Below, in pieces: positions 1,674 through 24,916 of a stretch of 64,000 nt of DNA; position 1 is the stretch's first letter; every line of letters starts with the position of its first letter. Below the pieces are notes generated by a model that was not told the DNA's origin, ran no database searches, and worked only from the letters and a program-made list of their open reading frames with translations. Origin of the DNA: Methylotenera sp. (GTDB lineage Bacteria > Pseudomonadota > Gammaproteobacteria > Burkholderiales > Methylophilaceae); the NCBI GenBank assembly GCA_013141075.1, contig JABFRQ010000005.1:496001-560000 (forward strand). The letters run 5' to 3'. A program made the translations under genes and the position numbers.

Positions 1674-1708
1674 GGGAACGATTCACCAAATTGCTAGGAA
1701 TTTATCCC
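1674..1708 (+). promoter_or_regulatory. Paired RGGA-N5-TCCY operator, distal pair upstream of mxaR
   Basis: Two 13-bp dyads, GGGAACGATTCAC (1674-1686) and AGGAATTTATCCC (1696-1708), have centres 22 bp apart. The second matches the motif shared by several promoters in this window. There is no good -10 at the usual distance, so this pair may be an auxiliary site for the mxaR promoter. Confidence 0.55.
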
Positions 1709-1811
1709 AAGCTTGTTGTTAGTTAAAAAGCAACATCAATTAAATCTGCTTTAAGTCACAGCAAAAGCGAGCCTTGGACCATTGAAAATAGTTAAGCTGG
1801 ACTACTCCGTG

Positions 1812-1876
1812 TAGCCAATATCCCAGTACAAATCGGGAATTTATCCCTAAATTAAAATCTGTCTTTAGCGTGTAAT
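1812..1876 (+). promoter_or_regulatory. mxaR promoter with RGGA-N5-TCCY operator
   Basis: A perfect dyad, GGGAATTTATCCC, lies at 1835-1847. A half-matching copy (ending ATCCC) lies at 1812-1824, centred 23 bp upstream. A -10-like TGTAAT is at 1871-1876, starting 30 bp after the dyad centre. This is the same geometry seen at four other promoters here. The rest of the 395-base gap (1563-1957) shows no convincing gene; a 63-codon reverse frame in it has no family features. Confidence 0.65.
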
Positions 1877-1957
1877 AGAGCCACTTAATAAATCTAGCCA
1901 CGTATTTATTTTTTTTAATACGGTTAAACATTGGGCTAAAAAATTTCAGGGGCTGCT

Positions 1958-2973
1958 ATGTCGGAAATCATGCTTGAAGATTGGCGCAATCGCGCTTTAA
2001 CATATGAAAAAGAGTTAAATGGCACGGTCATAGGTTTAGCACCTGCGATACGGTCTTTAGTGATTGCTATTTTTGCGCGTGGTCATGTGTTGTTAGAAGG
2101 CAATGTGGGCGTAGGTAAAACCACGCTATTACGTGCAGCGGCGCGTGGCTTGGGCGGTGGTTATCAACGCATAGAAGGCACGATTGATTTAATGCCGCAA
2201 GATTTGATTTATCACACTTATATTGATCAAGACGGCAAGCCGCGTGTGGATCCTGGGCCAATTTTAGGTCAAGGCGAAAATTTATCGGTATTTTTCTTTA
2301 ATGAAATTAACCGCGCTCGTCCGCAAGTACACTCACTATTGTTGCGTGTGATGGCAGAGCGTAGCATTACTGCGTTTAATCGTGAGTATTACTTTCCGCA
2401 TTTGTTGGTGTTTGCAGATCGTAACGCGGTGGAAAAAGAAGAAACATTCGAGTTGCCTGGCGCGGCGCGCGACCGCTTTTTGATGGAGTTGGAAATTAAC
2501 CCCGCTAATGACAGCGCGGTGCATAAAGCATTGACGTTTGACTCGCGTTTTCACGATACTGATAAATTGATAGAGCAAGTCACGGCGGGCAATGTTGGCT
2601 TTGATGCGCTCACGCCGTTTGCGCCTGTAATACAAAATTCTGTGACCGCAGGTGATGCGGTGCAAGATTTTGTGGAGCACTTACGTAAAGCCACGCATCG
2701 CCCACAAGATTACGGCATTCAATTGCCCGATGTGGATATGGATGAACTGATGATTGCAGGTATGGGCCCACGTGGCACGAGCATGTTAGTGCGCGCGGCG
2801 AAAGTTTCAGCATGGCTAGATGGTCGTTTGGTGCTGCGCCACAAGATGTGGCGGCAGTGTTTCATCAAGTGGTGGCGCATCGCGTGTTTTTTACGCCAAT
2901 TTATGAGCTGCAACGTAGCTGGTTGGCGAAGGCTTATACGCAAGCGATTTTGCAAAACGTACCTACGCCTTAG
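1958..2973 (+). CDS. mxaR: MoxR-family AAA+ ATPase MxaR, with a frameshift near the 3' end
   Basis: MoxR-type AAA+ ATPase, which in methylotrophs helps mature and activate methanol dehydrogenase together with the VWA proteins MxaC/MxaL and the DUF58 protein MxaS. Walker A is GNVGVGKTT (about residue 48), Walker B is FFFNEINRA, and the sensor/arginine-finger region GAARDRFLMEL is intact. The frame as it stands runs on to 2992 with a basic, non-family tail. Shifting frame at about 2831-2834 restores a normal MoxR lid domain (PQDVAAVFHQVVAHRVFF ... QRSWLAKAYTQAILQ) that stops at TAG 2971-2973. One lost base, for example GTGGCT read as GTGCT, explains it. The corrected protein would be about 338 residues. 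It is first gene of the mxaRSACKL run. Whether the shift is real or a sequence error cannot be told here. Confidence 0.88.
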
Positions 2974-3010
2974 TGATTATGAAAATAATTAGTAATTTTG
3001 CTATCGCCTT

Positions 3011-3067
3011 TGTAGGAGCGGTCTGTGACCGCGAACCAGTGCTTCGCGGTCACAGACCGCTCCTACA
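3011..3067. repeat. 25-bp perfect inverted repeat (REP-like) between mxaR and mxaS
   Basis: TGTAGGAGCGGTCTGTGACC (start of the left arm, 3011-3035) pairs perfectly with 3043-3067 around a 7-base loop. The TGTAGGAGCGG...CCGCTCCTACA shape is that of extragenic REP elements moved by RAYT transposases. It lies inside the mxa operon and could alter its mRNA stability. Confidence 0.8.
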
Positions 3068-3079
3068 GAAACCGTAACT

Positions 3080-3934
3080 ATGGCACAGCAACCCTTAATT
3101 CACTATCACGTCCGCTGGCGGCCTTCTGGGCATCAACCTGGGGCAAGCCATGGTTTGGTGGCTGGCATAGGTGACCAACTGCGCTCAGTTGTACTATTGC
3201 GCGACAACCCAGATCCACGCCGTTTAGATTTACGTGCAAGTGTACGTGACCCGTTTGAAAATATTTGGGTGCGTGATTTCAACTTAAATTCGGCATTAAA
3301 AGTCATCGTGTTGGTTGATACTTCTGCTTCTATGGGCTATGTGGGCAAGGTAAATCGCATGCACGTGGCACAAGAAGTCGCCTCGCAACTGGCACTTTCA
3401 GCCTATCGCTCAGGTGATGCTTTTGGTTTGTTTGCTGCGGGGGAAGTTATCAATAAACAATGTATGTTGCCGCCAAAAGCTAACCGTGGTGCTTGGTTGT
3501 GGGTGAATCATCACTTTTCAAAACTCACACCGCAAGGCAAACATGCGGATGGCTTGTTACAGGCAGTGCCTTATTTGCCGCAAAAACGTTGCTTGGTATT
3601 TGTGGTGTCAGATTTTCGTTGGCCAGTGGGACAATTAAAACTGTTATTAAAAAAACTCAGCCATCACGATGTCGTCCCCGTCATGCTGCAAGATCCCGCA
3701 GAAATGGATGCGTTGCCTAAAAGCGGCATTGCCATTTTGCGTGATGTTGAAACAGGCGCAGGGCAATTTGTGTGGATGCGGGCTGGCTTACAAAAACAAA
3801 TGCAAGACTTACGTGCGCAACATATTAGAAATGTAGAAGAAGCAAGCCGACTGTATGGAAACAAGCCATTTGTTGTTAAAGGGGCATTTGATACGGCGCT
3901 TTTGACCAAGTATTTTATGGAGCGCAGTACCTAA
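3080..3934 (+). CDS. mxaS: MxaS, DUF58/VWA-like accessory protein
   Basis: The 284-residue protein has the DUF58 layout, including a conserved DLRASVRDPFENIWVRDF stretch and an integrin-like fold with a DTSASMG metal site (about residue 79). There is no signal peptide or clear membrane segment, so it is probably cytoplasmic and works with the MoxR ATPase. In the classical mxa cluster, mxaS follows mxaR and is needed for an active methanol dehydrogenase; the exact step is unknown. Its stop codon overlaps the mxaA start (TAATG at 3932-3936), which argues for translational coupling. A REP-like hairpin separates it from mxaR. Confidence 0.85.
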   Translation: MAQQPLIHYHVRWRPSGHQPGASHGLVAGIGDQLRSVVLLRDNPDPRRLDLRASVRDPFENIWVRDFNLNSALKVIVLVDTSASMGYVGKVNRMHVAQEVASQLALSAYRSGDAFGLFAAGEVINKQCMLPPKANRGAWLWVNHHFSKLTPQGKHADGLLQAVPYLPQKRCLVFVVSDFRWPVGQLKLLLKKLSHHDVVPVMLQDPAEMDALPKSGIAILRDVETGAGQFVWMRAGLQKQMQDLRAQHIRNVEEASRLYGNKPFVVKGAFDTALLTKYFMERST

Positions 3935-4974
3935 TGAAAATTAAATTTGTCTTGCTACTCTGTTCGACACTCTTTTTACAAACCGCTTTCGCTGAGGATG
4001 TTGTTAAAACGTCTGCCATATCAGGTCCAAAAGTTAAAGTCACCATGCGCGATAATGGCTATACGCTTGGCGATATGATTGCCATGCATGCCGAGTTTGA
4101 TTTAGCTAAAGATTTAGTGTTTGACCCCAACAGCGTGCCGCTAAAAGGCCCTGTGAACAATTGGTTAGATTTACGCAATGTATCAATGGCTGAAGCCAAT
4201 AATGCCGATGGCGGGCGTAAAATCAGCATTGATTTTACTTGGCAGATATTTGGTACCGTAGAACATGCGCAAACACTCAAAATACCCGCGATACAACTGC
4301 AAACAATTCCGCTAGATAATAATGAGTCGGCAAAAGACGAGATTGCACAATCATCGAACAGCAAGTCACCAGCCAAACCTTTAGCCATTACGATTCCTGC
4401 GCAAGGTTTTCATTTATCGCCTGTGCTACCACCCACTATTACAGAAAATAAGCACCGCCCACATGCGCCACCTTTGCGCTTTAGTGAGCGCACGCCTCTC
4501 ATGCTCGCTGCACTGTTCTTGAGTTTAGGTTTGCTGTGTGGCGTGCTTTGGCTTTGGCTGGTAGATAAAATTTCATGGTGGCCACGCAACCCTGGCCCGA
4601 TGACACAGTTGTCACGCCAATTACGCCAAGCGGGTGTGGCGCAACAATCAAACTTTAGCTCCGAGAATTTACGCACCATTCATGCAGGTTTGGCAAGGTG
4701 TGCTGGGCAAAGCTTATACCCGAACACTTTAGCCAATCTGTTTAAAAAAAGCCCTTATCTAAGGGCTGAAAAAGACGCGATTACGCAGTTTTTTAATGCG
4801 TCATGGCAGGCGTTTTATGAAAAGACCAGTCAAGTCAACACCAGCTACATTTCTGTAGCTGATACTTTACGTTGGATTAACCGAGCTGCAATGGCGGAAC
4901 GCTTATCTCGCAGGCAAACCAATAAAATAGCGCATCAAAAGTCTATCGCAACCAATAAAGTAGCCAAAGTTTAA
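3934..4974 (+). CDS. mxaA: MxaA, calcium-insertion accessory protein
   Basis: This 346-residue protein has a signal peptide (MKIKFVLLLCSTLFLQTAFA), a periplasmic beta-rich domain, one strong membrane segment around residues 188-210 (LAALFLSLGLLCGVLWLWLV) and a cytoplasmic C-terminal domain. MxaA is known from Methylobacterium genetics to be needed, with MxaK and MxaL, for placing Ca2+ in MxaF-type methanol dehydrogenase. The assignment is by order (after mxaS, before mxaC) and topology, since the family is poorly conserved. It overlaps mxaS and ends 3 bases before mxaC. Its role in an organism whose visible dehydrogenases are lanthanide type is an open question. Confidence 0.8.
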   Translation: MKIKFVLLLCSTLFLQTAFAEDVVKTSAISGPKVKVTMRDNGYTLGDMIAMHAEFDLAKDLVFDPNSVPLKGPVNNWLDLRNVSMAEANNADGGRKISIDFTWQIFGTVEHAQTLKIPAIQLQTIPLDNNESAKDEIAQSSNSKSPAKPLAITIPAQGFHLSPVLPPTITENKHRPHAPPLRFSERTPLMLAALFLSLGLLCGVLWLWLVDKISWWPRNPGPMTQLSRQLRQAGVAQQSNFSSENLRTIHAGLARCAGQSLYPNTLANLFKKSPYLRAEKDAITQFFNASWQAFYEKTSQVNTSYISVADTLRWINRAAMAERLSRRQTNKIAHQKSIATNKVAKV

Positions 4975-4977
4975 GCG

Positions 4978-6000
4978 ATGAACGCCCTCCATTTTTTCAA
5001 ACCAGAATTGTTGTGGTTGTTGCCTTTGGCTTTGTTGCCCATGATTTCTTATGGGGTAAAGCAATTTAACTTCCCAGGTTTAGAAGATTGGCCTAAAGAT
5101 TTACTTTCTGACTGGCTGCGTTGGGGTGTACGGGCAATCGCAGCTTTAACGTTGGTGAGCCTGATCATTGCCGCTGCTGCGCCATTTACCGAAGGTGGCA
5201 CGGTGACGAAAGTGGGGGAAGGTGCGGAAATTGTGGTGGTGCTAGACCGTAGCGGCAGTATGTCTGAAAACCTGCAAAGCGATAATCAAAGCATCAATGC
5301 TAAACCTGTGAGTAAAATTGAAGCTGCTCGCAAAGTATTGCTTAAATTTATGGAGCAACGCCCAGCGGATACGTTTGGCTTGGTTGCGTTTAACGCGGCA
5401 CCTATTAGCGTTGCACCACTTTCGGCAGACCGAGAACTCGCCAAGGCTGCAATCAAAAGTGCAGAAAGTAATAGCTCGGGCTTTACTGCGTTAAACCGTG
5501 CATTAGCGATGGGGTTAGATTACTTTAACGGCAGGCCGTTTACCGCAACGCGCTTGATTATGCTGGTGTCTGACGGCGACGCCGTGATTGAGCCTGCTGA
5601 TAGAGAAATTTTAAAAAATCAATTTAAGCAATACCGCGCAAAACTCATTTGGGTGTATGTACACGCAGGGGTAGAAAAAAATATTTTAGATAGCGTGATT
5701 GCAGGTGATAACGAAATTATCACCAACGCTCAAAAGCAAGAAGTAGAGATTAACCAAAACGTTGCGATGAATCGCCTGTTTGAAGAGCTGGACATTCCCT
5801 ACCAAGCGTTTGAAGTCAATAGCGAAGCGGGTTTACAGCAAGCGGTAGCAGAAATTGGCCGCGCCACCAATAAGCCGACGCGCTACGAATACCGCTTGCC
5901 GCGCCAAGATTATGCCATCTATTTTTATGTATTGACCATGTTGTTATTAGGCGCGCTGTTTTGGCTAAAACAAATTGAGATTAAAGCTTGGAAGGCGTAA
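4978..6000 (+). CDS. mxaC: MxaC, membrane-anchored VWA protein
   Basis: The 340-residue protein has an N-terminal membrane region (residues 8-25 and 55-72), a von Willebrand A domain with a complete metal site VVVLDRSGSMSE (about residues 83-94), the later TALNRAL and MLVSDGD strands, and a final membrane helix near residues 312-330. This is the BatA-like topology of MxaC, which works with MoxR ATPases in maturation of methanol dehydrogenase. It begins 3 bases after mxaA and ends 6 bases before mxaK, so it is translated within a tight operon. Confidence 0.87.
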   Translation: MNALHFFKPELLWLLPLALLPMISYGVKQFNFPGLEDWPKDLLSDWLRWGVRAIAALTLVSLIIAAAAPFTEGGTVTKVGEGAEIVVVLDRSGSMSENLQSDNQSINAKPVSKIEAARKVLLKFMEQRPADTFGLVAFNAAPISVAPLSADRELAKAAIKSAESNSSGFTALNRALAMGLDYFNGRPFTATRLIMLVSDGDAVIEPADREILKNQFKQYRAKLIWVYVHAGVEKNILDSVIAGDNEIITNAQKQEVEINQNVAMNRLFEELDIPYQAFEVNSEAGLQQAVAEIGRATNKPTRYEYRLPRQDYAIYFYVLTMLLLGALFWLKQIEIKAWKA

Positions 6001-6006
6001 CGAACG

Positions 6007-6609
6007 ATGAAAACACAACATAAAATATTTCAATATTTGTTAGATAAGCTACCAACTAGCTTGTTGGTACTAATGGCGTTGCTAGTGCTTGCTTCAGGTT
6101 ACCAACTCAGTCAATGGTGGGAAGCACACCAACTTAACTTGGCGTATGACAATAAAAGCCTATTAAAACAGCCCTTAAAAAATGATGAATATCTAAAAGC
6201 TTATAGCATAGGATATTTACTCGCCAGTCAAAATAAACCCATCGAGGCCGCTAAAGCTTTCAACATTGCAGAGGTATCGCTAGACCCCGAACTGCGCGCC
6301 CGCGCTAAATATGCCATTGCCAACGTACATTTTGAATCGGCAATGGCTTCTAGCGATATTGAACACGGCGGTTCGCACAGGCGCTCTGTAGAACGCATTT
6401 TACTGGCTCGCGAAGCCTATAAAGGCGCGCTACGCATCAAGCCAGATATGTACAATGCGCGTTATAACCTAGAGTTGATTGATAGACTAAGCCCAGATAA
6501 ACGCGGTCAAGGCTATGAAAACTCGCCAGATGGTACGATTGGTTTGCAACCATATCAACAAAACGGCACGGCATTGATGAAAGATAATACACGCAGGGGT
6601 TTGCCGTGA
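6007..6609 (+). CDS. mxaK: MxaK, membrane-anchored TPR-like protein
   Basis: About 200 residues: one N-terminal membrane helix (LLVLMALLVLASGYQL, about residues 19-34), then a periplasmic part with TPR-like helices (ARAKYAIANVHFESAM; AREAYKGALRIKPDMYNARY). MxaK belongs to the set of factors needed for metal insertion in MxaF-type dehydrogenase. The call rests on size, topology and position between mxaC and mxaL. Confidence 0.8.
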   Translation: MKTQHKIFQYLLDKLPTSLLVLMALLVLASGYQLSQWWEAHQLNLAYDNKSLLKQPLKNDEYLKAYSIGYLLASQNKPIEAAKAFNIAEVSLDPELRARAKYAIANVHFESAMASSDIEHGGSHRRSVERILLAREAYKGALRIKPDMYNARYNLELIDRLSPDKRGQGYENSPDGTIGLQPYQQNGTALMKDNTRRGLP

Positions 6610-6687
6610 ATAAAAATTCAATCTACGCTGTCATTCTCCATTCTCACCTTGCGCACCTTGGAGGCTTAAATTTTTTGAGTGATTTTG

Positions 6688-7710
6688 ATGCACCATAACC
6701 TAAAACATTGGTGGGGACATTTTCGTGTTCACCTGCGTCATGCTATTCAAAATGGCGCGATTTGGTATTTGTTAGCAGGCTTGGTTTTGCTACCAGTGTG
6801 GTTTGAGCCACAATTGCAACTCAAAAGCGTGGTGCAAGATACACTGTTTGTGATTGATATTAGTGAGAGCATGAATGTACGTGATATTGATTTCCCAAAG
6901 CCGCAAACTGATCGTTTAACACTTGCCAAGTTGGCTGTGCGTGAGGGTATGGCAAGCTTACCTTGTGGCTCAAAAGTATCGGTAGCATTGTTTGCGGGTG
7001 ACGAATCTGTCGTATTATTTGAGCCATTGGAAGTTTGCCGTCACTTCCCCGCCATTGAGCAAGTGGTATCTGGCTTAGACAGGCGCATGCGTTGGATAGG
7101 AGATTCTTGGGTCACCAATGCGCTCACAGCCTCAATTATTGAAGCCCAAAAAAGAAAACTTAACTTAGTTTATATTACCGATGGCGATGAAATGCCACAA
7201 CGCTCCGCCCCTATTGTGACTGATTTGGCTAAATTAAGAGGTAGAGTTAAAGGTCTATTGCTAGGCGTTGGCGGTGATGCTTTGCAACCAATTCCCCGTT
7301 TAAATCAAAAAGATGAAATTATTGGCTATTGGACGCGTGAAGATGCGGTGCTAGAAGGCAATTATCCCAATCTACTTCCCACCGTGCGCAATTTAGCACC
7401 AGGCGAAAAAGCACCAGATGGGATGCTAGATGAAGTCACTGAGCATATATCCTCGTTCAATAAAGTGTTCATGCAAGCGCTCTCACAAGCATCTGGCCTT
7501 GCCTTGGTGCGCATCAACACACCTGCGGATGCAGTGAAAGCCATTAAAAATAATGATTATCAAAAAGAAGCCATGGCAGAAAGAGACGCTCGCTGGATAT
7601 TTGGCTTGTTTGCGGCGGTGTTCATTTTAATAGGTTGGTTTTGGCAAATAATTCGAACATTTATTGCAAAAAAACGCATATTTAAGCGCAAGTTTGGCTT
7701 AAGCCATTAA
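6688..7710 (+). CDS. mxaL: MxaL, membrane-anchored VWA protein
   Basis: About 340 residues with an N-terminal membrane helix (GAIWYLLAGLVLLPVWF), a VWA domain whose metal site reads LFVIDISESMN, the strand LVYITDGDE, and a C-terminal helix (FGLFAAVFILIGWFW). MxaL is the BatB-like partner of MxaC and is needed for metal insertion in MxaF. The start could be GTG 6679 or ATG 6688; I chose the ATG because GAGTGA sits at a normal distance. About 78 bases separate it from mxaK, looser than the rest of the operon. The last 53 bases of its C-terminal helix region (7621-7673) recur exactly at 12272-12324. No terminator is seen just after it. Confidence 0.85.
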   Translation: MHHNLKHWWGHFRVHLRHAIQNGAIWYLLAGLVLLPVWFEPQLQLKSVVQDTLFVIDISESMNVRDIDFPKPQTDRLTLAKLAVREGMASLPCGSKVSVALFAGDESVVLFEPLEVCRHFPAIEQVVSGLDRRMRWIGDSWVTNALTASIIEAQKRKLNLVYITDGDEMPQRSAPIVTDLAKLRGRVKGLLLGVGGDALQPIPRLNQKDEIIGYWTREDAVLEGNYPNLLPTVRNLAPGEKAPDGMLDEVTEHISSFNKVFMQALSQASGLALVRINTPADAVKAIKNNDYQKEAMAERDARWIFGLFAAVFILIGWFWQIIRTFIAKKRIFKRKFGLSH

Positions 7711-7767: not shown

Positions 7768-7810
7768 AGGAATTTATCCTGTATCAATAGGTGAATTGTG
7801 CGCATATAAT
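7768..7810 (+). promoter_or_regulatory. Promoter with RGGA-N5-TCCY operator before the secreted repeat protein
   Basis: The perfect dyad AGGAATTTATCCT (7768-7780) is followed by a consensus -10 TATAAT at 7805-7810, which starts 31 bp from the dyad centre. That would place the operator near -43 from the start of transcription, a position typical of class II activation. No second copy is visible 22-23 bp upstream. Confidence 0.7.
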
Positions 7811-9837: not shown

Positions 9838-12108
9838 ATGCAACAAACAAATTTTAAACTTAGTCATATTAAATTAGCTGTGCTAATAGCGTTGACAACG
9901 TCGCCTTTATTCGCATCTGCCGAAGATCAAGCCACAGCAACAGAAATAACCTTACCATCAGTCAACGTTCGTGCCACGATTGAAACGGGTGGGCTTTATC
10001 AACCTGCAATTTCTAAATCAGCAGCTAAGATTGATGTACCTTTAATGGACCTTCCTATTACTGTGAACGTTGTAACTAAAGAAACCTTTCGTGATCAAGG
10101 CGCACGATCATTGAATGATGCTTTACATAGCGTTCCTGGAGTGAGCGTATTGGCGGGTGATGGCGCACGCGACCAAGTGTATATTCGTGGTTTTAACACT
10201 CAAAACGATAATTATATTGATGGTTTCCGTGATGACTCTACCTACTACCGTGATTTATCCAATATTGAAACCATAGAGGTTCTCAAAGGCCCCGCAGCTG
10301 CGCTTTACGGTCGTGGTTCATCAGGTGGCATTATCAATCGCATCACCAAAAAACCAATGTTTAAAAATCAATATGAAATTGGGGGAACCGTTGGGTCATA
10401 CAATGTAAAACGAGGTGAGATAGATGTTAACCAAAAATTGAGCGATCAAATCGCTGTTAGATTAACCGGTGCTTTAGAAGATTCTGAAAGTTTTCGTGAT
10501 CAATATTTTATGGAGCGCCACATGATAGCGCCCTCTATTTTGTTTAAGGCTTCAGAACAAACCAGCATTTTGGTACAAATGGACTATTTAAACGACAACC
10601 GTTTAGACGATTTAGGTGTGCCAGCGCAATTAGGTGCGCCAATTAATGTATCACGAAGCACATATTATGGCTCCCTAAATGGCAAAAAGGATGATTACAT
10701 TAAAACAATTGTTAAGGGTGGCAGCATTAGTTTTGACCATACCTTTGATAATAATGTGAAAATTAAAAGCGTGTTCAGAGCAGCCAATTCAGACCAAGAC
10801 AGAAACGATACGCGCGCACCTGGTTTTAATACCACACAATTCACGCGTCAACACACGCACATTTTGCGTGATGAAACCAGTCTTTTCAACCAAACAGACT
10901 TAATGTTCAAGGCAGATGCGTTTGGCATGAACCATAACATGCTGGCTGGACTAGAACTTAACCGTCAGGACAAAGATTCATGGGGAAGTCGCTTTGATAT
11001 TGGTAGTGTAGATAAATTTAACCCTGTATTAACGCCTATTGTTTATGGCACTGCTACTACACCAACATTCGCAGATTTTAATACACGCTGGTTTACGCCA
11101 TTACCTGGTGGTACAAAACTCAAAAGCGTATCAAATACTAACCATCTAACTAAAACGGTTGGTATTTATGCACAAGATTTAATCACATTAAATCCTGCGT
11201 GGAAGGTGCTAGCAGGCATCCGTTATGATAATTTTGATCAAACTACCGAAAATTACATGCTTCTAACAAGCAATGTCAACAGAACCTTGAAACACAAAGA
11301 TAATACATGGAGCCCTCGTCTTGGTGTTGTGTATCAACCAAATAGTGCTGCAAGTATTTATGCCTCAGTAAGCCGCTCATATCAGCCTTCTGGCGAAATT
11401 AGCGCTTTGTCTGCAGCAAATGTGAATATGGATCCTGAACGCACACAAAACTTTGAAGTAGGTACAAAACTTGATTTGTTTGATGGCAATGTTTCTGCAA
11501 TGGCTTCAATATTTAGATTAGAAAGAACCAATATTAAAGCCACAGATGCCGCAACAAATACTCTTGTGCAAGTGGGTGAGCAACGCACAAACGGTCTTGA
11601 ATTGTCATTGTCAGGCCGTCCAGCTGAAGGTGTTGACGTCATTGCTGCTTACACTTACATGGATGCTATCGTTTCCAAATCAAAAGCTAATCAGTCGAAC
11701 GTATGTAGTTCTGCAGCGGGCTCTGACGGTGTTTCGGCTGCAACCAATGCTGCATTGTGTGCCACCATTCCAACTAATGTTTCATTGCAAGGCAAACGAG
11801 TGCCAATGGTGGCAAAAAATAGTGCTAACCTTTGGATTACCAAACGCTTCGCTAATGGTTTTGGATTTGGTGGTGGCTCTACGTTCACCGACAAGCGCTA
11901 TGGCTCTGCGATTGAGCAAAGCTACATTCCAAAATACATTCGTTTTGATGCCACAGCTTTTTTCGAAGCAAAAAAATACGAGGTTCGCTTAAATGTATAT
12001 AACTTGTTTGATAAGCACTATACTGATGCTGCCACTGGTGGCAATGAGAACGCGGCCATTCCTGGCGTGCCATTAAGTGCATTGTTATCAGCAAAATATA
12101 GATTTTAG
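9838..12108 (+). CDS. TonB-dependent siderophore-type outer-membrane receptor
   Basis: The 756-residue protein has a signal peptide, a plug domain (SLNDALHSVPGVSVLAGDGA, then VYIRGF, IETIEVLKGPAAALYGRGS and GGIINRITKKP) and a long beta-barrel ending in a C-terminal aromatic (SALLSAKYRF). That is the siderophore-receptor branch of TonB receptors. The ribosome site AGGGGAAAC precedes the ATG and the gene follows the secreted repeat protein within 32 bases. Because it is under the same operator as methanol-oxidation genes, its cargo may be a metal chelate used by them, possibly a lanthanide complex, as shown for other TonB receptors in methylotrophs. That cargo is inference. A hairpin terminator follows at 12157-12183. 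Confidence 0.88.
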   Translation: MQQTNFKLSHIKLAVLIALTTSPLFASAEDQATATEITLPSVNVRATIETGGLYQPAISKSAAKIDVPLMDLPITVNVVTKETFRDQGARSLNDALHSVPGVSVLAGDGARDQVYIRGFNTQNDNYIDGFRDDSTYYRDLSNIETIEVLKGPAAALYGRGSSGGIINRITKKPMFKNQYEIGGTVGSYNVKRGEIDVNQKLSDQIAVRLTGALEDSESFRDQYFMERHMIAPSILFKASEQTSILVQMDYLNDNRLDDLGVPAQLGAPINVSRSTYYGSLNGKKDDYIKTIVKGGSISFDHTFDNNVKIKSVFRAANSDQDRNDTRAPGFNTTQFTRQHTHILRDETSLFNQTDLMFKADAFGMNHNMLAGLELNRQDKDSWGSRFDIGSVDKFNPVLTPIVYGTATTPTFADFNTRWFTPLPGGTKLKSVSNTNHLTKTVGIYAQDLITLNPAWKVLAGIRYDNFDQTTENYMLLTSNVNRTLKHKDNTWSPRLGVVYQPNSAASIYASVSRSYQPSGEISALSAANVNMDPERTQNFEVGTKLDLFDGNVSAMASIFRLERTNIKATDAATNTLVQVGEQRTNGLELSLSGRPAEGVDVIAAYTYMDAIVSKSKANQSNVCSSAAGSDGVSAATNAALCATIPTNVSLQGKRVPMVAKNSANLWITKRFANGFGFGGGSTFTDKRYGSAIEQSYIPKYIRFDATAFFEAKKYEVRLNVYNLFDKHYTDAATGGNENAAIPGVPLSALLSAKYRF

Positions 12109-16647: not shown

Positions 16648-16737
16648 TTGCATACGTTGCCTTGGTAATATTTTGTAACATTCTGATTACAAAATATTAC
16701 GGTGGCAGACGAAATTTTTATTAACCGCGGAGGACGT

Positions 16738-18639
16738 ATGAAACAAAATTGGACATTAAAAGCCATGTTTGTTGCGCTTGGTGCCGTAGCCATGATTGGT
16801 ATGGTTGGGCAAGCATCAGCAAATGAAGAGATTATTAAACGCAGTAAAGATCATAACATGTGGGCTGCCCCTGGCCAAAACTTGGCAATGCATCGTCACA
16901 GCCAATTAAAAGACATTAACACAAAAAACGTTAAAAACTTGCAAATGATTTGGTCACAATCTTCAGGTACATTGCGCGGTCATGAAGGTCAGCCAGTGGT
17001 GGTTGAGCATAACGGCAAGCCAATGATGTACATGGTTTCAGGCTGGCCAAACATTGTTCAGGCTTTAGATTTATCTGATCCTGATCATCCAAAACAAATC
17101 TGGAACTACACTAAAAAATCTGACCGTGATGAATCAGCCGTGCCTCGTGCATGTTGCGATACCATTAACCGTGGTTTGAACTATGCTGATGGTCGCGTGG
17201 TGTTCCATACTTTAGATGGCTTCTTGATTTCACTTGATGCTACTACAGGTAAAGAACAATGGGTGACTAAACATGCGTTCCCAGAAAAAGGTGAAACACA
17301 TTCAGGCCCAGCAATGGTTGCTGAAGGTTTAGTGGTTGCTGGTTTCGGTGGTGACGAGTTCGCCGCACGTGGCCGTACTGTAGCCTATGACCTAAAAACA
17401 GGTAAAGAAGTTTGGAAATGTCATAGTACAGGTTCTGATGCAGACATCTGTATGGATAAAGACACTAACAAAGCGAACCCACACTACGGCGTGGCAGGCA
17501 ATAAAGTTGGTGAAACTTACCCAGGTGACGAGTGGAAAATTGGTGGTGGTTCACCATGGGCTTGGTTCACTTATGACCCTAAATTACGTTTAATGTACGC
17601 AGGTACAGGTAACCCAGGTCACTGGTCTCCAGCTTATCGTTGCGGTGAAACAGGTGCAAACTTGACGCACGAAAAATGTAACGAAGTTGACCCAAAAACA
17701 AATGTTGGCAAATACGACAATAAATGGTCTATGACGATTATGGCGCGTAATATCGACACTGGTAAATTGGTTTGGGCTTACCAAAAAACACCATTTGACC
17801 AATGGGATTACGACGGTGTGAACGAAAACATCTTGGTTGATAACCTAAAAGTTGACGGTAAATCAGTGAACGCTTTAGTGAACTTTGACCGTAACGGCTT
17901 TGCTTACGTGTTAGATCGTAAAGACGGTACATTGTTACGTGCTACTAAGTTCGTGACAGTAAACTGGGCTGAAAAAGTTGACTTAAAAACAGGTCGTCCT
18001 GTAAAAGTGAAAGAACACTCACCATTTGCACGTGATGTTAATACTCAAGCTTGTCCATCTGCAATGGGTGGTAAAGACCAACAACCAGCAGCAGTTGACC
18101 CGAAAGAACCTAACGTGTTCTACGTGCCAACCAACAACTGGTGTATGGAAGATGAGCCGCAAGAACGTACGCACACACAACAAGGTACTGTGTATGTGTT
18201 TGCTAACGTTTACATGTATCCTGAAAAACCAGGCATTACTGGTAAATTCAAGAAATATGACGTTGTGACTGGTAAAACCATCTGGGAAATCCCTGATCCA
18301 TATCCAAACTGGGGCGGTGCTTTAGTGACTGACGGTGGCCTAGCATTCTACGGTTCATTGGGTGGTGACTTCCGCGCAGTTGACCGTAATTCAGGTAAAG
18401 TGCTTTGGAGTCGTAAATTAGCTTCTGGCATTATCGGCAACCCAATCACTTACAAAATCAAAGGCAAACAATACGTATCTACTTGGACAGGTATTGGCGG
18501 CTGGATTGGTTTACCTATAACTGCTGGTTTGGACATGGAAGATAAATACGGCGCAATCGGTGCAACTGCGATGGCTAAAGCTTCTGGTTTAGACAAAGTG
18601 CCACAAGGCGGTACATTGTTTACATTCCGTGTTGACTAG
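16738..18639 (+). CDS. PQQ-dependent alcohol dehydrogenase, divergent lanthanide (XoxF-like) type
   Basis: A periplasmic quinoprotein of about 633 residues with a signal peptide (residues 1-28, ending GQASA) and an eight-bladed propeller. Seen: the vicinal disulfide Cys139-Cys140 (RACCDTINRG), metal ligands Glu207 (GGDEF) and Asn292 (GTGNPGHW), the catalytic Asp357, and Asp359 in WDYDG. The extra Asp two residues after the catalytic one marks lanthanide-dependent enzymes; MxaF has Ala there. It differs from the xoxF at 37766 by a rewritten N-terminus and extra cysteines (Cys228, Cys238, Cys302, Cys314) in inserted loops. ATG 16738 follows GGAGG; an earlier in-frame start lacks one. Downstream lie its likely partners: a MoxJ-like protein and a cytochrome. 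Methanol is a likely substrate but another alcohol or aldehyde is possible. Confidence 0.88.
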   Translation: MKQNWTLKAMFVALGAVAMIGMVGQASANEEIIKRSKDHNMWAAPGQNLAMHRHSQLKDINTKNVKNLQMIWSQSSGTLRGHEGQPVVVEHNGKPMMYMVSGWPNIVQALDLSDPDHPKQIWNYTKKSDRDESAVPRACCDTINRGLNYADGRVVFHTLDGFLISLDATTGKEQWVTKHAFPEKGETHSGPAMVAEGLVVAGFGGDEFAARGRTVAYDLKTGKEVWKCHSTGSDADICMDKDTNKANPHYGVAGNKVGETYPGDEWKIGGGSPWAWFTYDPKLRLMYAGTGNPGHWSPAYRCGETGANLTHEKCNEVDPKTNVGKYDNKWSMTIMARNIDTGKLVWAYQKTPFDQWDYDGVNENILVDNLKVDGKSVNALVNFDRNGFAYVLDRKDGTLLRATKFVTVNWAEKVDLKTGRPVKVKEHSPFARDVNTQACPSAMGGKDQQPAAVDPKEPNVFYVPTNNWCMEDEPQERTHTQQGTVYVFANVYMYPEKPGITGKFKKYDVVTGKTIWEIPDPYPNWGGALVTDGGLAFYGSLGGDFRAVDRNSGKVLWSRKLASGIIGNPITYKIKGKQYVSTWTGIGGWIGLPITAGLDMEDKYGAIGATAMAKASGLDKVPQGGTLFTFRVD

Positions 18640-18881: not shown

Positions 18882-20536
18882 ATGTCAAAATCGTCCGTTT
18901 TTAAGCAAACTTTACTCGCTATTGCCTTGGCCGCAGTTGTTTTTCCCGTGGTGGCTGAAGAAGTGCAGGTGCCAGCATCCATCAAAAAGATGGGCTCACT
19001 CCGCATTTGTGCAGATCCAGGCAATATGCCGCTATCAAGCGATAAAGGTGAAGGCTTTGAAAATAAAATTGCCACCATCATTGCTGAAGGCATGGGTACG
19101 CATACCAGCTATTTTTATCGTCCGTATTTAGAGCGCGGCTTAACACGCCAAACGTTTGATAATAATGAGTGTGACATTTTGATGGATATGTCGCCCGATG
19201 ATGAGCGCATGATGACGACTATGCCTGTTTACAAAAGTACTTTTGTATTGGCATATCGTAATGACAAAGGCATAGATATTAGATCATTTGATGATTCTAA
19301 GTTGCTTAACGAGTACAAAGTTGGAGTGTTTCAACATTCCGCTATTCGCACCGTGTTACAAGAGCATGGCTTTAATCGAGCAAATTCTGTGGTGCGCGTT
19401 CTATTTCTCACGATGCAGATTTGCAGCCAAACCGCGCACCGCACATGACTGTACAACAAATGATAGACGGTGAGTTTGATGTGGCCGCCGTTTGGGGTCC
19501 TTATGCGGGCTGGTATAAAGCCAAGAAAAATGCGCCGATTACTGTGGTGCCTGTGAATACGATGGAACATAACATGCCGCTTGAGTTTGGCTTATCTATT
19601 GGTATGCGTAAAAACGCCAAAGAGCTTAAAGCGGCCATTGAAGCGGTGATGATCAAAGAAAAAGACAAAATCAAAAAAGTATTAGATGAATACGGCGTGC
19701 CTTTGGTGCAATGTAAAGAGTGTGCCGTTTCTGGTGATTTACCTTCGCACGGTGCATATAAGCCGCGTATTAAAACCGCACAATCTGCATTAGTTCCCAA
19801 GCAGTCTGACCTTGCTATGTTGCCCGCCATGATAGATGAAGCCCTGAAGCAAGGCTCAACGTTAGAGGGTGAGTTGCATAATGCCACCATTGCGCGTGAC
19901 TCTACACGCATAGAGTATTTACTTAAACGTGGCGCAAAAATTGATGCGCGCGATACTGAGCAACAAACACCGCTTATCGTAGCGGCAAAAGGTGGCGATT
20001 TAAGTGTGATGAATGGCTTGTTGGAGTACAAAGCCAACCCGAATGTGCAAGATGACGATGGCTGGACAGCCGCCATGCACGCTGTGCGTTCAAATGAGCC
20101 TAAAGTTTTCCGCCTATTAGGTAAACACAAGGCGGATTTCAACATTGTAAATAAAGATGGCGTAACCGCCTTAGCTATGGCGGTGAATGATAATAAAGCC
20201 AATGCGGCAGTAGCGATGCTTGATAACAATGCCAACCCAAACTTTGTAATGGGGGCAGGTAAATACAACGCTTTAATGTTAGCTGTGACTAAAGGTAACC
20301 TCGTGATGGCGCAAACTTTATTGCAATATAAAGCTAATCCTAACGCAAAAAATTCAGGTGGTGTAACGCCGCTAATGATTGCGGCACATAAAGACCAAGA
20401 CATGATTATCAGTTTGCTATTAAAAGCAGGCGCAAAAGCGGATATGAAAGATGATGAAGGCAAAACCGCATTGCAGATAGCCAAAGCCAATGACGCACAA
20501 AAGGCGGTTGCAATGTTAGAAAAACCTGCGGAATAG
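18882..20536 (+). CDS. MoxJ/XoxJ-like periplasmic binding protein fused to ankyrin repeats, frameshifted
   Basis: The first part (signal peptide, then LRICADPGNMPLSS and GFENKIATIIAE) is a quinoprotein-associated solute-binding-protein fold like MxaJ/XoxJ. The frame breaks at about 19398-19400; the next frame continues the same domain (ISHDADLQPNRAPHMTVQQM, then DVAAVWGPYAGWY and LSIGMRKNAKELK). One missing base, for example a lost T in GTTCT, restores a protein of about 551 residues. After the binding domain (to about residue 300) come about five ankyrin repeats (RGAKIDARDTEQQTPLIVAA, KANPNVQDDDGWTAAMHAV, KANPNAKNSGGVTPLMIAA). A MoxJ-ankyrin fusion is unusual; the repeats may dock the dehydrogenase or cytochrome in the periplasm. 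Its shift may be an error or real decay. Confidence 0.82.
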
Positions 20537-20552: not shown

Positions 20553-20617
20553 AGGATTAAATCCTACGATTTATAGGATTTAATCCGTCATACCAAACTA
20601 GCCATACAGCGTTAAAT
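20553..20617 (+). promoter_or_regulatory. Paired-operator promoter of the lipoprotein cytochrome c gene
   Basis: AGGATTAAATCCT (20553-20565) and AGGATTTAATCCG (20575-20587) have centres 22 bp apart. A -10-like TTAAAT at 20612-20617 starts 31 bp after the second centre. Both dyads are near-perfect, so this is one of the clearest examples of the shared design. Confidence 0.7.
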
Positions 20618-20712
20618 GATTAGTTGGCTATAAACCAATTTTTGTAGTTTTTTTACAGTACTTATGTTTTACGGTACTTAGAGAGTTGTTTAATTTTTTG
20701 AAAGGCTTTGAA

Positions 20713-21402
20713 ATGAAATTTCGTTATGTTGGCATCATTGCCATGTTAAGTATGTTATCGATGACTGCGTGTGCGGCTGGCACAGATAAATCGGCAGCAA
20801 AGGCTGCAGATAATGCAAAACCAGAGGTTGTAGCAGAAATTAAAAAAGTAGAAGCGGTATCAGAAAAAGTAGTCGTGGCTGCAGCAGAAACTCCAGCAAC
20901 ACCAGAAGCCGCCGCCGCGCCTGCAGTAGGCGCAGATGGTTTTGCACTGCCAGTGCAAAAGAAAAAATCTACTGCCCCAGAAATTAAGCCTTTAGCTTCA
21001 GATAAATCACCACATGACGTGGCAACAGATGCTGCCAAAGGTACATTAAAAAACCCGTACTCATATACAACGATGAATCCAGATTTAGTTGAGGCAGGCA
21101 AGAGAAAATACATGGGTGTGAGCTGTAATGGCTGCCATGGCGGTAATGGCGGTGGCGGTATGTGCCCACCACTTTCTAACGAAACTTGGGTATATGGTGC
21201 AGATGACGATACTTTATTTCGCTTAGTGGCTTTAGGTAGCGATGAGTTAATGAAGCAAGGCTACACACGCAAAGGCCGTGAAAACGTAGTAGGCCCGATG
21301 CCTGCGCACGGAAAACTTGTGAAAACTGAAGATGATTTGTGGCGCATTATTTACTTTATCCGTGGCAACTTCCGTGGTGAAGCTAAAAACATTAAGTGGT
21401 AA
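20713..21402 (+). CDS. Lipoprotein cytochrome c, probable electron acceptor of the PQQ dehydrogenase
   Basis: About 229 residues from ATG 20713; an upstream TTG frame is less likely because the signal begins at MKFRYVGIIAMLSMLSMTAC. The lipobox (SMTAC) predicts a lipid-anchored Cys. A low-complexity Ala/Val/Glu/Lys linker follows (to about residue 110), then a class I cytochrome domain with one haem site CNGCHG and the axial Met probably in VVGPMPAHG. The stretch GGNGGGGMCPPLSNETWVYG is like cytochromes cL/XoxG that serve methanol dehydrogenases. The lipid anchor and linker suggest a tethered, flexible carrier at the membrane. It has its own paired-operator promoter. Confidence 0.85.
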   Translation: MKFRYVGIIAMLSMLSMTACAAGTDKSAAKAADNAKPEVVAEIKKVEAVSEKVVVAAAETPATPEAAAAPAVGADGFALPVQKKKSTAPEIKPLASDKSPHDVATDAAKGTLKNPYSYTTMNPDLVEAGKRKYMGVSCNGCHGGNGGGGMCPPLSNETWVYGADDDTLFRLVALGSDELMKQGYTRKGRENVVGPMPAHGKLVKTEDDLWRIIYFIRGNFRGEAKNIKW

Positions 21403-22968: not shown

Positions 22969-23001
22969 TTTTAACTCATTTAGTAAAAGGAAAGCGAAGT
23001 A

Positions 23002-23547
23002 ATGAAAAAGTTTTTATCAATGTTAGTCGTGGCTTGTTTATTGCCTGTAGCAGCCCTTGCACATGGCCCTAGTGGGCAAAAAGTTGTAAAAGAATTTGAA
23101 GTGAAGGCCGAGCCAGCAAAAACATGGGCTTTACTCAAAGACTTTGGTGCAATTGGCAAATGGCATCCTGATGTGACGAATGTGAAATTGGAAGATAGAA
23201 AAGATGAGGAATCTGGTAAGACATTGTCACACCGCTTAGTGACTCTAAAAAATGGCACCACATTTTTAGAAAAGCTACGCGAAGCCAATGATGCTGACAT
23301 GAAGCTTGATTACAAATTAGTAGATGGCAAAGACAGTACCATTGCCGTGAGTAACTACCGCACTGTAGCACAAGTGAAAGCAGGCAAATCCTCAGGGCAA
23401 TCTACAGTGACGCTAACCGCGCGTTTTTATAACAAAGCGAATACGATGGAAGCACCTGAAGGCCAAGATAACCCAGCGGCCAATAAAGCGATTAATGAGT
23501 TATACGACGAGGCGGCGGTGGGTTTGAAAAAAGCACTTGAAAAGTAA
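23002..23547 (+). CDS. MxaD-like periplasmic SRPBCC protein (copy 2)
   Basis: The 181-residue paralogue of the preceding gene has a signal peptide (MKKFLSMLVVACLLPVAALA) and the same fold (EVKAEPAKTWALLKDFGAIG, then HPDVTNVKLE and late helix AAVGLKKALEK). The two share order and spacing, so they arose by tandem duplication and have since drifted. Two copies may serve two dehydrogenases or two cytochromes (inference). An inverted repeat at 23597-23640 follows. Confidence 0.82.
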   Translation: MKKFLSMLVVACLLPVAALAHGPSGQKVVKEFEVKAEPAKTWALLKDFGAIGKWHPDVTNVKLEDRKDEESGKTLSHRLVTLKNGTTFLEKLREANDADMKLDYKLVDGKDSTIAVSNYRTVAQVKAGKSSGQSTVTLTARFYNKANTMEAPEGQDNPAANKAINELYDEAAVGLKKALEK

Positions 23548-23596
23548 ATGCACAAGAAGCTAGGTAATAAAAAATCAACAAAACGATTTGCGGATT

Positions 23597-23640
23597 AAAA
23601 TGCTGTTTAGTGTGATGGTAGTCACATTAAACAGCATTTT
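23597..23640. terminator. Inverted repeat ending the MxaD-like operon
   Basis: AAAATGCTGTTTAGTGTGA and TCACATTAAACAGCATTTT form a 19-bp stem with one wobble or mismatch. The T-rich 3' side suits a terminator on the + strand; it is near-symmetric and could act both ways. Confidence 0.75.
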
Positions 23641-23695
23641 AAAAGAAGATAATGAATTTTAACTGCATTTTAATAGCATAATTCTGGAGTGTAAA

Positions 23696-24780
23696 ATGAA
23701 ATTCTTACGCAAAAGTTTAATTAACGCAACACTAGCATTTTCATTTTCTGCTAGCTTAATGTTGCCCATGCTCACTTCACCAGCCATGGCGGCAGAAAAA
23801 TGCCAGCCGCAAAACCTGCCGTTCAAGGCGAATTTGAAAACCAATGTGTGATGGGCTTGGCAGAAGGCAAGCGCATCAAAACCGATTGCTCAGTCAATAC
23901 CGTGTTTGAAGGCAAAACCTATTGCTTTCGCACAGAAGATGCCAAAGTGGCGTTTAACAAAGACCCCAAGCGCAATTTAGAGCGTGCCAAAGACCATTAT
24001 GCTGCGGGTGAAGTCAGTCAAACTGGTGACGACATGGGCAAATATAGTGTGGATGATGTTAAAACATGGATAGACCAACATATTCAAATCGAATCTAAAA
24101 AGAATAATGGCATTTATTTTGTGCATGATTCACTTACGGGTGAAAAATTACCCTTGAAGTACAAAAATATTGATTTTATGCGTACCTTGCACGGGTATGG
24201 TTTTTTCCCAGAAGCGATTTTTACCGCGAAAGATGATGAAAATAAAAAGTATTTGATTGATTTTTGGGTAAAGCCAAAAAACGGAAAACTCGATTTATTT
24301 GATGTGCGCATTTATAAATCACCGCGCAAGGAGGGCGAAAACTGGACGCTAGTCAAGCGTCAGCCCAAACCTTGGTGGTGGATTCCCGCTTCTGAACATC
24401 CAGGTGAGTCTGAGCAAAAACGTAGTTGGGAAGTGATGTCGGCAATTGAAGAGCACATCGTGTCATCAAAATCCGCCAATACGGGCTTATATAAATTGAC
24501 TGACGACAAAACGGGCAAAGAGGTGGAGCTGGAGTTTATTGGCGTACATCAACCTGTGCGTAAATTAAAAGACAACGGGCAATTTTTTGCCTGTACGGAT
24601 TTTCGCAAAAAAGGCAGTAAAGACGAAATTTATGACATTGATTTTTGGTTGGATGAAAGCACGGGAAAAATTAAAGTGGGTACGGTGCGTGTACATAAAG
24701 TGCCTGAAATGCGCGATGGCGACATTATCCAAGTGCCACGATACAACCATGACCCAAGCAAAACCGAGTTAGTGCCATAA
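23696..24780 (+). CDS. Secreted YHS-like domain protein with two repeated domains, frameshifted
   Basis: ATG 23696, after GGAG, opens a signal peptide (MKFLRKSLINATLAFSFSAS ... PAMA-AEK). The frame then hits a stop, but adding one A to the A5 run at 23796-23800 joins it to the long frame starting MPAAKPAVQGEFENQ. The mature part begins with a YHS-like module (NQCVMGLAEGKRIKTDCSVN ... YCFRTEDAKVAF), a fold often binding metal through cysteines. Two copies of another domain follow, each with a helix, an LTG/DTG turn and a DFWV/DFWL strand (about residues 115-215 and 240-325). I do not recognise the family of that domain. Placed by MxaD-like genes, it may act in metal delivery or maturation (inference). 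Confidence 0.7.
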
Positions 24781-24851
24781 ACATAGCCAACCTAGCTTGT
24801 AACATCACGCCTCCCATCAGCAACCCTAAGTAGGGCTGCCAATCACTTTTC

Positions 24852-24916
24852 AGGATTATATCCCATGCAATTTTAGGATTTATTTGGTATCTCAGCCGTG
24901 AATACCTAGCTATGAT
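24852..24916 (+). promoter_or_regulatory. Paired-operator promoter of the second beta-propeller gene
   Basis: AGGATTATATCCC (24852-24864) and the half-matching AGGATTTATTTGG (24875-24887) have centres 23 bp apart. A -10 TATGAT at 24911-24916 starts 30 bp after the proximal centre, the same layout as elsewhere. Confidence 0.65.

Follow-up and report, generated by a model that had tools for sequence, protein, structure and literature searches.

We describe a short inverted repeat, RGGA-N5-TCCY, that recurs with fixed geometry before the genes of a methanol dehydrogenase block in Methylotenera sp. and that is probably bound as an operator by LuxR-type regulators partnered with MxaY-type kinases, serving an activated regulon under a lanthanide signal. 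The site recurs beside the same type of sensor-regulator pair in many unrelated proteobacteria, and it is therefore very probably the regulator's docking site. The window, i.e., the whole 64,000-nucleotide stretch analysed, contains the following dyads (unstranded, with matches counted over the eight fixed positions) and -10-like boxes:

1674..1708, unstranded: distal phased dyad pair in the gap before the moxR-like operon (GGGAACGATTCAC at 1674, 7/8; 1696 exact)
1812..1847, unstranded: proximal pair, a half site at 1812 (5/8) and the exact copy at 1835, whose centre lies 30 bp before TGTAAT
1871..1876, + strand: -10-like box TGTAAT of the moxR-like operon, kept in 4/4 promoters read
7768..7780, unstranded: exact dyad before the gene at 7880 (protein of unknown family), with a TonB receptor gene next
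7805..7810, + strand: -10-like box TATAAT, 31 bp past the centre of the 7768 dyad
12208..12220, unstranded: decayed dyad in front of the TonB receptor at 12437; G023, G015, G006 and G032 have it exact
16482..16515, unstranded: distal pair in the xoxF1 gap (16482, 6/8; 16503 exact)
16560..16618, unstranded: proximal triplet in the xoxF1 gap (16560, 6/8; 16583 exact; 16606, 6/8; 23+23 bp)
16642..16647, + strand: -10-like box TATAGT of xoxF1, 30 bp past the 16606 centre
20553..20587, unstranded: tandem dyads ahead of the gene for cytochrome c (20553 exact; 20575, 7/8)
20612..20617, + strand: -10-like box TTAAAT, 31 bp past the 20575 centre
24852..24887, unstranded: tandem dyads ahead of the gene for the YVTN beta-propeller (24852 exact; 24875 half)
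24911..24916, + strand: -10-like box TATGAT, 30 bp past the 24875 centre

Seven exact copies occur in the 64-kb window (1696, 1835, 7768, 16503, 16583, 20553 and 24852), compared with a mean of 0.93 and a maximum of 4 in 100 dinucleotide shuffles, and all seven are intergenic, in gaps that make up about 3.6 kb of the first 27 kb. An earlier note on this DNA had placed the motif only in gaps of the first 25 kb: this is true of the exact copies (7/7), but 7 of the 12 single-mismatch (7/8) sites in the first 27 kb fall inside genes. The other copies that it listed are degenerate, matching 5-7 of the 8 fixed positions (7/8 at 1674 and 20575; 6/8 at 16482, 16560 and 16606; 5/8 at 1812 and 24875). 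Its phasing of 21-23 bp was confirmed, with centre-to-centre distances of 22 (1674-1696), 23 (1812-1835), 21 (16482-16503), 23+23 (16560-16583-16606), 22 (20553-20575) and 23 bp (24852-24875), and all five -10-like boxes were found where it had put them, 30, 31, 30, 31 and 30 bp past the proximal centre.

At these five promoters, hexamers at spacers of 15-19 match TTGACA at three or fewer of six positions, and the copy adjoining the -10 box is often degenerate, with the perfect copy 22-23 bp farther upstream. We propose that two dimers bind one face of the helix with a separation of 22-23 bp, or two turns: the perfect distal copy would anchor the protein, and the dimer on the often weaker proximal copy, centred ~42-43 bp before the predicted start, would replace the -35 element and contact RNA polymerase, so that the regulon would be activated. 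It is rather improbable that the protein is a repressor, or that it represses some targets and activates others. PedR2 is reported to activate pedE and repress pedH (PMC6115532, in part), and MxaY lowers xoxF in Methylotuvimicrobium buryatense (PMC5018670, in part), so the sign may differ between organisms; but a centre ~42-43 bp before the predicted start without a good -35 is an activator position, and the LuxR-type CrbR acts as an activator through a repeat spanning -52 to -36 (PMC5715377, in part).

The genes that would read or obey these sites are, with their neighbours:

47..688, + strand: RR2, receiver plus LuxR/GerE response regulator with recognition helix KTVAN; proposed site reader
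C1:494692-496047: HK2, presumed RR2 kinase (LapD_MoxY_N, HAMP and HisKA_3), its end overlapping the RR2 start
14805..15455, - strand: RR1, paralogous LuxR-type response regulator with KTVAN helix
15452..16420, - strand: HK1, HisKA_3 histidine kinase, presumed RR1 partner
1958..7710, + strand: MoxR-like ATPase, DUF58, VWA and TPR-type proteins (methanol dehydrogenase assembly-type operon); presumed target
9838..12108, + strand: TonB-dependent receptor, encoded after the gene at 7880; presumed target
12437..14689, + strand: TonB-dependent receptor; uncertain as a target here, since its dyad (12208) is decayed, but a target in relatives
16702..18639, + strand: XoxF1-type PQQ methanol dehydrogenase (7o6z_A, E 4.9e-248); presumed target
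18882..20536, + strand: MoxJ-type binding protein with ankyrin extension, in two frames here
20686..21402, + strand: cytochrome c with a weak MoxG match; presumed target
24999..25982, + strand: YVTN/lactonase-type beta-propeller; presumed target

Judged by sequence, the block encodes a XoxF1-type methanol dehydrogenase: its best solved relative is 7o6z_A (827.9 bits versus 569 for the next), and 7O6Z is a XoxF1-type enzyme, a type for which an extra aspartate, Asp172 in M. thermophilum, is diagnostic (PMC8546591). An Asp in a GGDEF stretch of the window protein is aligned and identical, its equation with Asp172 being an estimate, and a Ser aligns with the presumed companion Cys, whose position was assumed. 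An eighth exact copy lies just outside the window at C1:494624, 55 bp before the HK2 gene, with its box at 28 bp as against 30-31 at the five window promoters. The predicted targets are xoxF1, its cytochrome, the MoxR assembly operon, the YVTN propeller and TonB receptors, together with the kinase-regulator operon. The methanol-oxidation regulon suggested previously is supported, and extends to the kinase-regulator operon and, in relatives, to TonB receptors.

Both RR1 and RR2 consist of Response_reg and GerE domains, and HK2 carries a LapD_MoxY_N sensor domain, HAMP and HisKA_3, the combination that we take to mark an MxaY-type kinase. The dyad would be the operator of a LuxR/FixJ-type subfamily (helix KT[VI]AN) paired with MoxY/MxaY-type HisKA_3 kinases, with RR2 as its chief reader here and the paralog RR1 probably acting on the same site. 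Both regulators had been put forward before; from protein comparisons, RR2 (47-688) appears more likely than RR1 (14805-15455), as an RR2 ortholog (at least 62%) is present in 13/13 genus genomes with the tandem site, while RR1 lacks a close ortholog in 2 of 9 checked. RR2-like proteins also occur in 11 genus genomes without a tandem site. HK2-RR2 borders the MoxR/XoxF1 block; it stands before xoxF1, with one Sel1 gene between, in G036, G025, G065 and G071, and in G006 and G023 RR2 is elsewhere on the same contig. We think it unlikely that the main reader is the local pair transcribed away from xoxF1, RR1/HK1 (14805-16420), with RR2 serving other genes. RR1 adjoins xoxF1, has the same KTVAN helix and has orthologs at 67-78% in 6/8 relatives, but G036 and G025 retain the sites with a best RR1 match of 48-49%, and the class-wide association described below was obtained with HK2, the kinase adjoining RR2, as sole query.

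Among 40 promoters examined in nine genomes, which were picked because at least one genome carried a copy, 39 have an exact copy while the inner bases change. Exact copies are found in 9/9 xoxF1 promoters of the genus group, 8/8 cytochrome c promoters and 7/7 YVTN propeller promoters; the MoxR promoter has one at the equivalent place in G023, G015 and G006, and the equivalent of the 7768 site in G023 comprises two exact phased copies. The tandem form occurs in 13/52 genus genomes (control, 1/52), namely the 12 with XoxF1 and G034, in which a short contig carries the ankyrin-cytochrome part of the cluster. Across the source genome (2.48 Mb scanned, 90% complete) there are 21 exact copies versus 13 of the reversed pattern. 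Eight of these are in the block; the 13 outside it, equal to the reversed-control number, are distributed among rRNA genes (4), ORF interiors (7) and gaps (2).

The association with the kinase extends beyond the genus. With HK2 alone as query, 20 of the 29 best loci of 60 matching genomes carry the dyad, 32 copies in all (mean 5.1 and maximum 13 in shuffles), and 9/29 have no exact copy. Over whole kinase loci, GGA ranks only 12th of 64 triplet palindromes, 11 of the other 63 exceeding it, which we ascribe to base composition, and the spacer control is the sole meaningful one there: 64 copies at spacer 5 versus 8-27 at the other spacers from 0 to 13. The 30 best GacA loci hold 3 copies, in 3 loci, against a shuffle mean of 4.6, ruling out for GacA the dyad as a general marker of NarL/GacA-type regulators, and the KT[VI]AN helix is found in 83/107 regulators of related loci versus 0/30 GacA loci.

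As a class-wide detector the bare tandem failed: two perfect copies gave 23 sites versus ~32 in the control across 370 genomes, so the bare pattern is not specific. Among six of these loci that were inspected, TonB receptor or kinase-regulator genes adjoin L159, L162 and L165 but not L153, L154 and L156. An AT-core pattern gave 52 copies versus 9 reversed in eight named genomes, and 22 of the 52 were examined in their context. In Methylophilus aquaticus (8 of 11 read), three precede cytochrome, MoxR and kinase genes; in Hyphomicrobium zavarzinii (7/7), one precedes a PQQ dehydrogenase and one a TonB receptor; in Methylocella silvestris (6/6), one precedes a methyltransferase gene and the other five are inside ORF models, including one from the xoxF1 neighbourhood; and the single copy of Methylorubrum rhodinum (1/1) has no gene model behind it. 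Several others precede genes of no evident relation (phosphomannomutase, Na/H exchanger, chemotaxis receptor). Five of seven copies in Methylotenera mobilis 13 have coordinates in the xox region, and the xoxF1 promoter of M. silvestris strain TVC has only a 6-base-spacer variant and a phased half site.

The motif is not confined to Methylophilaceae but is common to several classes of Proteobacteria. Outside that family, the 350 bp upstream of 23/57 XoxF1 genes hold a copy; an exact copy is absent from that interval at the other 34/57, and at 3/19 Methylophilaceae-like XoxF1 loci (4 of 80 loci, L100, L121, L128 and L148, were excluded for too little upstream DNA). Upstream of the 57 genes, GGA comes first among the 64 triplet palindromes (next, 8/57), and only spacer 5 stands out from 0 to 13 (23 versus at most 4). 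Copies occur in 20/37 of these loci with a LuxR regulator in the examined flank and in 3/20 without. Outside the family, 63 sites give 25 site counts with a phased second copy at 22-23 bp, against a background of 1.7 per offset. The -10 offset also recurs there, on small counts: 7 and 5 of 116 site-gene pairs at +53 and +31, respectively, with a background of 0.57 per offset, and none of the 116 at +30. TonB receptors make up 17/111 downstream genes outside the family, and many of the 62 scanned downstream genes there have no evident lanthanide or methanol link (1 of 63 unclassified genes, L113, was left out of alignment A1). The earlier note held that equal frequency inside genes or before unrelated genes would count against the motif; the exact copies behave otherwise, with 7/7 in gaps in the window and, at related loci, 123/342 (36%) inside genes versus 368/453 (81%) when the dyad is given seven other spacers instead. 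ORF models followed a simple longest-ORF scheme with no trained gene finder, and the gene/gap count excluded eight loci from already-included genomes; L235-L238, which were picked by the tandem pattern, were kept in the gene/gap, downstream-gene and phasing counts and dropped from the -10 count.

That the repeats are a chance or structural feature with no regulatory meaning is extremely improbable. The copies outside the block equal the control number and the bare tandem is not enriched class-wide, but the restriction to gaps, the specificity for one spacer and the recurrence in several classes speak against it, and chance is ruled out by the shuffles, the reversed pattern, the other 63 triplets upstream of XoxF1 and the other spacers. 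A site common to all PQQ dehydrogenases is likewise ruled out by XoxF4-like and plasmid loci: the two XoxF4-like genes of the source genome have no exact copy at their loci, and four named plasmid loci with related dehydrogenases have 0 copies close before the gene, the adjoining regulator at one of the four having KTVQN.

By analogy with MxaY, the signal would be lanthanide supply, with the regulator active under scarcity. Lanthanum lowers xoxF1 of M. silvestris together with its cytochrome and the LutBAH homologs next to it, and MxaY/MxaB are implicated (PMC9291206, in part). A less favoured possibility, to which we give a minority share of belief, is that the regulators bind the site in response to alcohol, formaldehyde or PQQ-enzyme turnover. 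Related LuxR-type systems such as AgmR/ErbR of Pseudomonas are alcohol-linked (PMC12997753, in part), and some sites precede genes without a known lanthanide role; against this stand the MoxY-type sensor domain of HK2, the frequency of TonB receptors downstream outside the family and the lanthanum repression in M. silvestris. Whether RGGA-N5-TCCY is the Proteobacteria-wide operator of MxaY-type two-component systems, and so supplies the DNA element still missing from the lanthanide switch, we regard as evenly balanced. If it is, the lanthanide regulon of Alpha-, Beta- and Gammaproteobacteria, methylotroph or otherwise, would become predictable from the site, along with TonB receptors not yet described and their partners. 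Identifying the MxaY regulon may uncover further lanthanide-responsive genes (PMC5018670, Discussion, in part), and the mechanism governing the PedH/PedE switch is described as still unknown (PMC11845868, in part). An operator of fixed geometry would make the route from lanthanide-linked kinases to promoters directly testable; it could also be used to search for candidate rare-earth uptake receptors and as a regulated promoter part for methylotrophs.

Full-text searches of an open-access library showed no published operator for such regulators. GacA/UvrY is the top-scoring curated NCBIfam model for RR2 and RR1 (184.3 and 160.5 bits), but neither reaches the cut-off of 280, the GacA helix is KTVNSY/KTVSTY-like rather than KTVAN, and GacA loci lack dyad enrichment. 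CrbR of Pseudomonas fluorescens is, like RR2, a LuxR-family response regulator, and its ACTU element is an imperfect inverted repeat at -52 to -36 of an RpoD promoter and essential for activation; it differs in sequence (e.g., TACTACCATCGTCGAAT), in controlling acetate genes and in that no phased tandem was seen in the portion of PMC5715377 consulted, and by eye the window copies are unlike the examples TACTACCATCGTCGAAT and TACGACTAAAGTCTAAA given there. PedS2/PedR2 and EraS/EraR (ExaDE) of Pseudomonas similarly combine a LuxR-type regulator and a kinase over PQQ alcohol dehydrogenases with a lanthanide-dependent switch, and the part of PMC6115532 available to us gives no binding site. MxaY/MxaB of M. 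buryatense and M. silvestris are likewise a sensor kinase and a response regulator over methanol dehydrogenase genes, for which no operator is given in the accessible parts of PMC5018670 and PMC9291206, and HK2 has the Pfam domain named after MoxY; unlike that system, which is reported to lower xoxF in M. buryatense (PMC5018670, in part), the regulon proposed here is that of Methylotenera and joins the XoxF1 cluster to TonB receptors.

The exact 13-bp dyad RGGA-N5-TCCY occurs seven times in the window (496001-560000 of contig 1, in a genome of 2.48 Mb), compared to a mean of 0.93 and never more than four in 100 shuffles. All seven exact copies lie in intergenic gaps of the first 25 kb, as the earlier note had claimed, and gaps make up only about 3.6 of 27 kb. 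The remaining copies listed in that note proved to be degenerate, matching at five to seven of the eight fixed positions. Its geometry held when measured in the window: centers of phased copies are 21-23 bp apart, and each of the five named -10-like boxes (1871, 7805, 16642, 20612 and 24911) lies 30-31 bp downstream of the proximal center. A good -35 is absent at all five promoters. The block encodes the following:

XoxF1-type methanol dehydrogenase, most similar among solved structures to 7o6z_A (827.9 bits; 569 for the runner-up), described as an XoxF1-type enzyme (PMC8546591)
47-688 (+), LuxR-type response regulator RR2
14805-15455 (-), paralogous LuxR-type response regulator RR1
18882-20536, MoxJ-type protein with ankyrins
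c-type cytochrome
MoxR/DUF58/VWA assembly-type genes
two TonB receptors
beta-propellers

The MoxJ-ankyrin gene occupies two overlapping frames here and one continuous frame across the junction in the related genome G009, which points to an apparent frameshift or sequence error near 19390-19410 in the window's copy. The gene at 7880-9805, with a dyad directly upstream and a TonB receptor gene downstream, encodes a 641-aa protein without a match in Pfam or NCBIfam at 0.001. Two adjoining paralogs at 22429-23547, of 179 and 181 aa, share 49% identity and are retained in the XoxF1 cluster; the former of the two matches Polyketide_cyc2.

Genome-wide, there are 21 exact copies vs 13 of the reversed pattern that served as control. 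Eight of the 21 fall in the methanol-dehydrogenase block, the others being in rRNA genes (four), ORFs (seven) and gaps (two). The eighth block copy (C1:494624) lies beyond the window, upstream of the gene for HK2 (C1:494692-496047), the presumed kinase of RR2, whose gene it overlaps; because this position was invisible to the earlier note, the copy represents an out-of-sample success, with its -10-like box at 28 bp compared to 30-31 elsewhere. HK2 contains LapD_MoxY_N (sensor), HAMP and HisKA_3 domains, and MxaY (MoxY) has been described as a lanthanide-switch kinase (PMC5018670). The exact dyad is absent from the loci of two further PQQ dehydrogenases (37778-39637 and G000:C2:45338-47179; 636 aa, about 42-47% to XoxF1), which are probably XoxF4. 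Across extracted loci, 123 of 342 copies are in genes; when the spacer is changed to any of seven other lengths, 368 of 453 copies are.

Within the genus, 39 of 40 promoters from nine cluster-bearing genomes possess the exact dyad while its inner five bases vary, a figure that reflects conservation rather than discovery because the promoters were chosen for having a copy in at least one genome. The single exception is the window's own promoter of TonB receptor 12437, which retains only a decayed dyad at 12208. The tandem form (two phased dyads) occurs in 13 of 52 genus genomes, compared to one of 52 for the reversed control, and all 12 genomes with XoxF1 are among these 13; in the remaining one, G034, a short contig carries the ankyrin-cytochrome portion of the cluster. 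In G006, G023 and G036, a second cluster about 20-30 kb upstream of xoxF1 combines a PQQ dehydrogenase of 607-608 aa with a kinase and a regulator of its own, and exact dyads occur near the dehydrogenase gene.

Loci selected on the kinase alone tie the dyad most strongly to the HK2/RR2-like kinase-regulator family. Querying 370 genomes of the class with HK2 gave matches in 60 of them at 1e-30, and the best 29 loci (the window's own excluded) contained 32 dyads in 20 loci (shuffle mean 5.1, maximum 13), with other spacers yielding one to eight copies. In contrast, the 30 best loci of the GacA regulator family held three copies in three loci, in line with the shuffled level.

Among 80 loci collected on XoxF1, 76 had sufficient upstream DNA. 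Of the 19 Methylophilaceae-like loci, 16 had the exact dyad within 350 bp upstream of XoxF1, as did 23 of the 57 from elsewhere, among them loci of Hyphomicrobium, Methylophaga, Methylorubrum rhodinum, Enterovibrio and Photobacterium; this leaves 37 of 76 with no exact copy inside 350 bp. At the 57 non-family loci, GGA ranked first of 64 triplet palindromes with 23 loci (second-best, eight), and among spacers of 0-13 a spacer of five gave 23, all others at most four. At these same loci, the dyad was found in 20 of 37 with a LuxR regulator in the extracted flank vs three of 20 without (Fisher p 0.005). Across the class, the bare tandem pattern showed no enrichment; AT-core copies were enriched in eight named genomes (52 vs 9 in the control), and many of the 22 of 52 inspected in context were not upstream of relevant genes.

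A copy 22 or 23 bp away was found in every group when a phased second copy was scored at six or more of eight positions (both members of a pair may count): 10 and 32 of 92 Methylophilaceae sites (background 0.85 per offset), 16 and 9 of 63 at other XoxF1 loci (background 1.7), and 5 and 2 of 30 at kinase loci (background 0.56), the last leaving out four loci picked by pattern. This 22-23 bp spacing plus the 30-31 bp from center to -10 gives an offset of +53, at which a strong -10 occurs in 30 of 115 Methylophilaceae pairs, many of them orthologs, with 10 at +30 (background 1.2). Outside the family, counts are small yet fall at the predicted offsets, with seven at +53, five at +31 and none at +30 among 116 pairs (background 0.57).

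An RR2 ortholog (62% or more) occurs in all 13 tandem-site genomes, and an RR2-like protein at 1e-70 in eleven further genus genomes without the tandem site; presence of the regulator thus does not require that of the cluster. A close RR1 ortholog is absent in G036 and G025, both of which retain sites. RR1 and RR2 have the recognition helix KTVAN in common, and the helix KT[VI]AN is present in 83 of 107 related regulators at extracted loci vs none at 30 GacA loci. From these distributions we propose RR2-type proteins as readers of the dyad, with RR1 likely a second reader.

Of 111 genes downstream of non-family copies, 21 encode XoxF1 and 20 a kinase or regulator, both counts being biased by locus selection, and three resemble TonB receptor 12437 by blastp. 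Scanning 62 further downstream proteins gave 14 matches to TonB receptor models, five to DUF3450 and three to SoxYZ; one downstream protein matches a PQQ-system binding protein, and many of the remaining non-family genes have no evident relation. Two TonB receptors (L211:5155-7491, with no solved relative by phmmer, and L235:7380-9809) adjoin kinase-regulator genes with dyads in between, and are candidate rare-earth uptake receptors. Similar genes for 255-258 aa proteins near the kinase gene (L214:8466-9236, L221:8652-9428, L224:10737-11513, L228:8420-9187) start 1-10 bp from a dyad, and we take their products to be among the DUF3450 matches.

The spacing suggests that two dimers would bind on the same side of the helix, and that the proximal dimer, near -43, would replace a -35 and activate transcription; for CrbR, a LuxR-type activator, the repeat from which it acts is reported to span -52 to -36 (PMC5715377). 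In Methylocella silvestris, lanthanum has been reported to lower xoxF1 transcription 24-fold, its promoter activity 6-fold, and LutBAH homologs beside xoxF1 3- to 5-fold, with MxaY/MxaB implicated (PMC9291206). The xoxF1 promoter of M. silvestris strain TVC (the study strain was BL2) has only a variant with a 6-base spacer plus a phased half site, and in Methylotuvimicrobium buryatense, MxaY reportedly lowers xoxF (PMC5018670); lanthanide scarcity is therefore no more than a plausible activating signal. Searches of an open-access full-text library, which includes only a minority of subscription papers, gave no report of this operator, so the "unreported" of the earlier note is likely but not proven. 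Operators of LuxR-type regulators are already known as a kind, but the identity, geometry and breadth of this dyad appear new.
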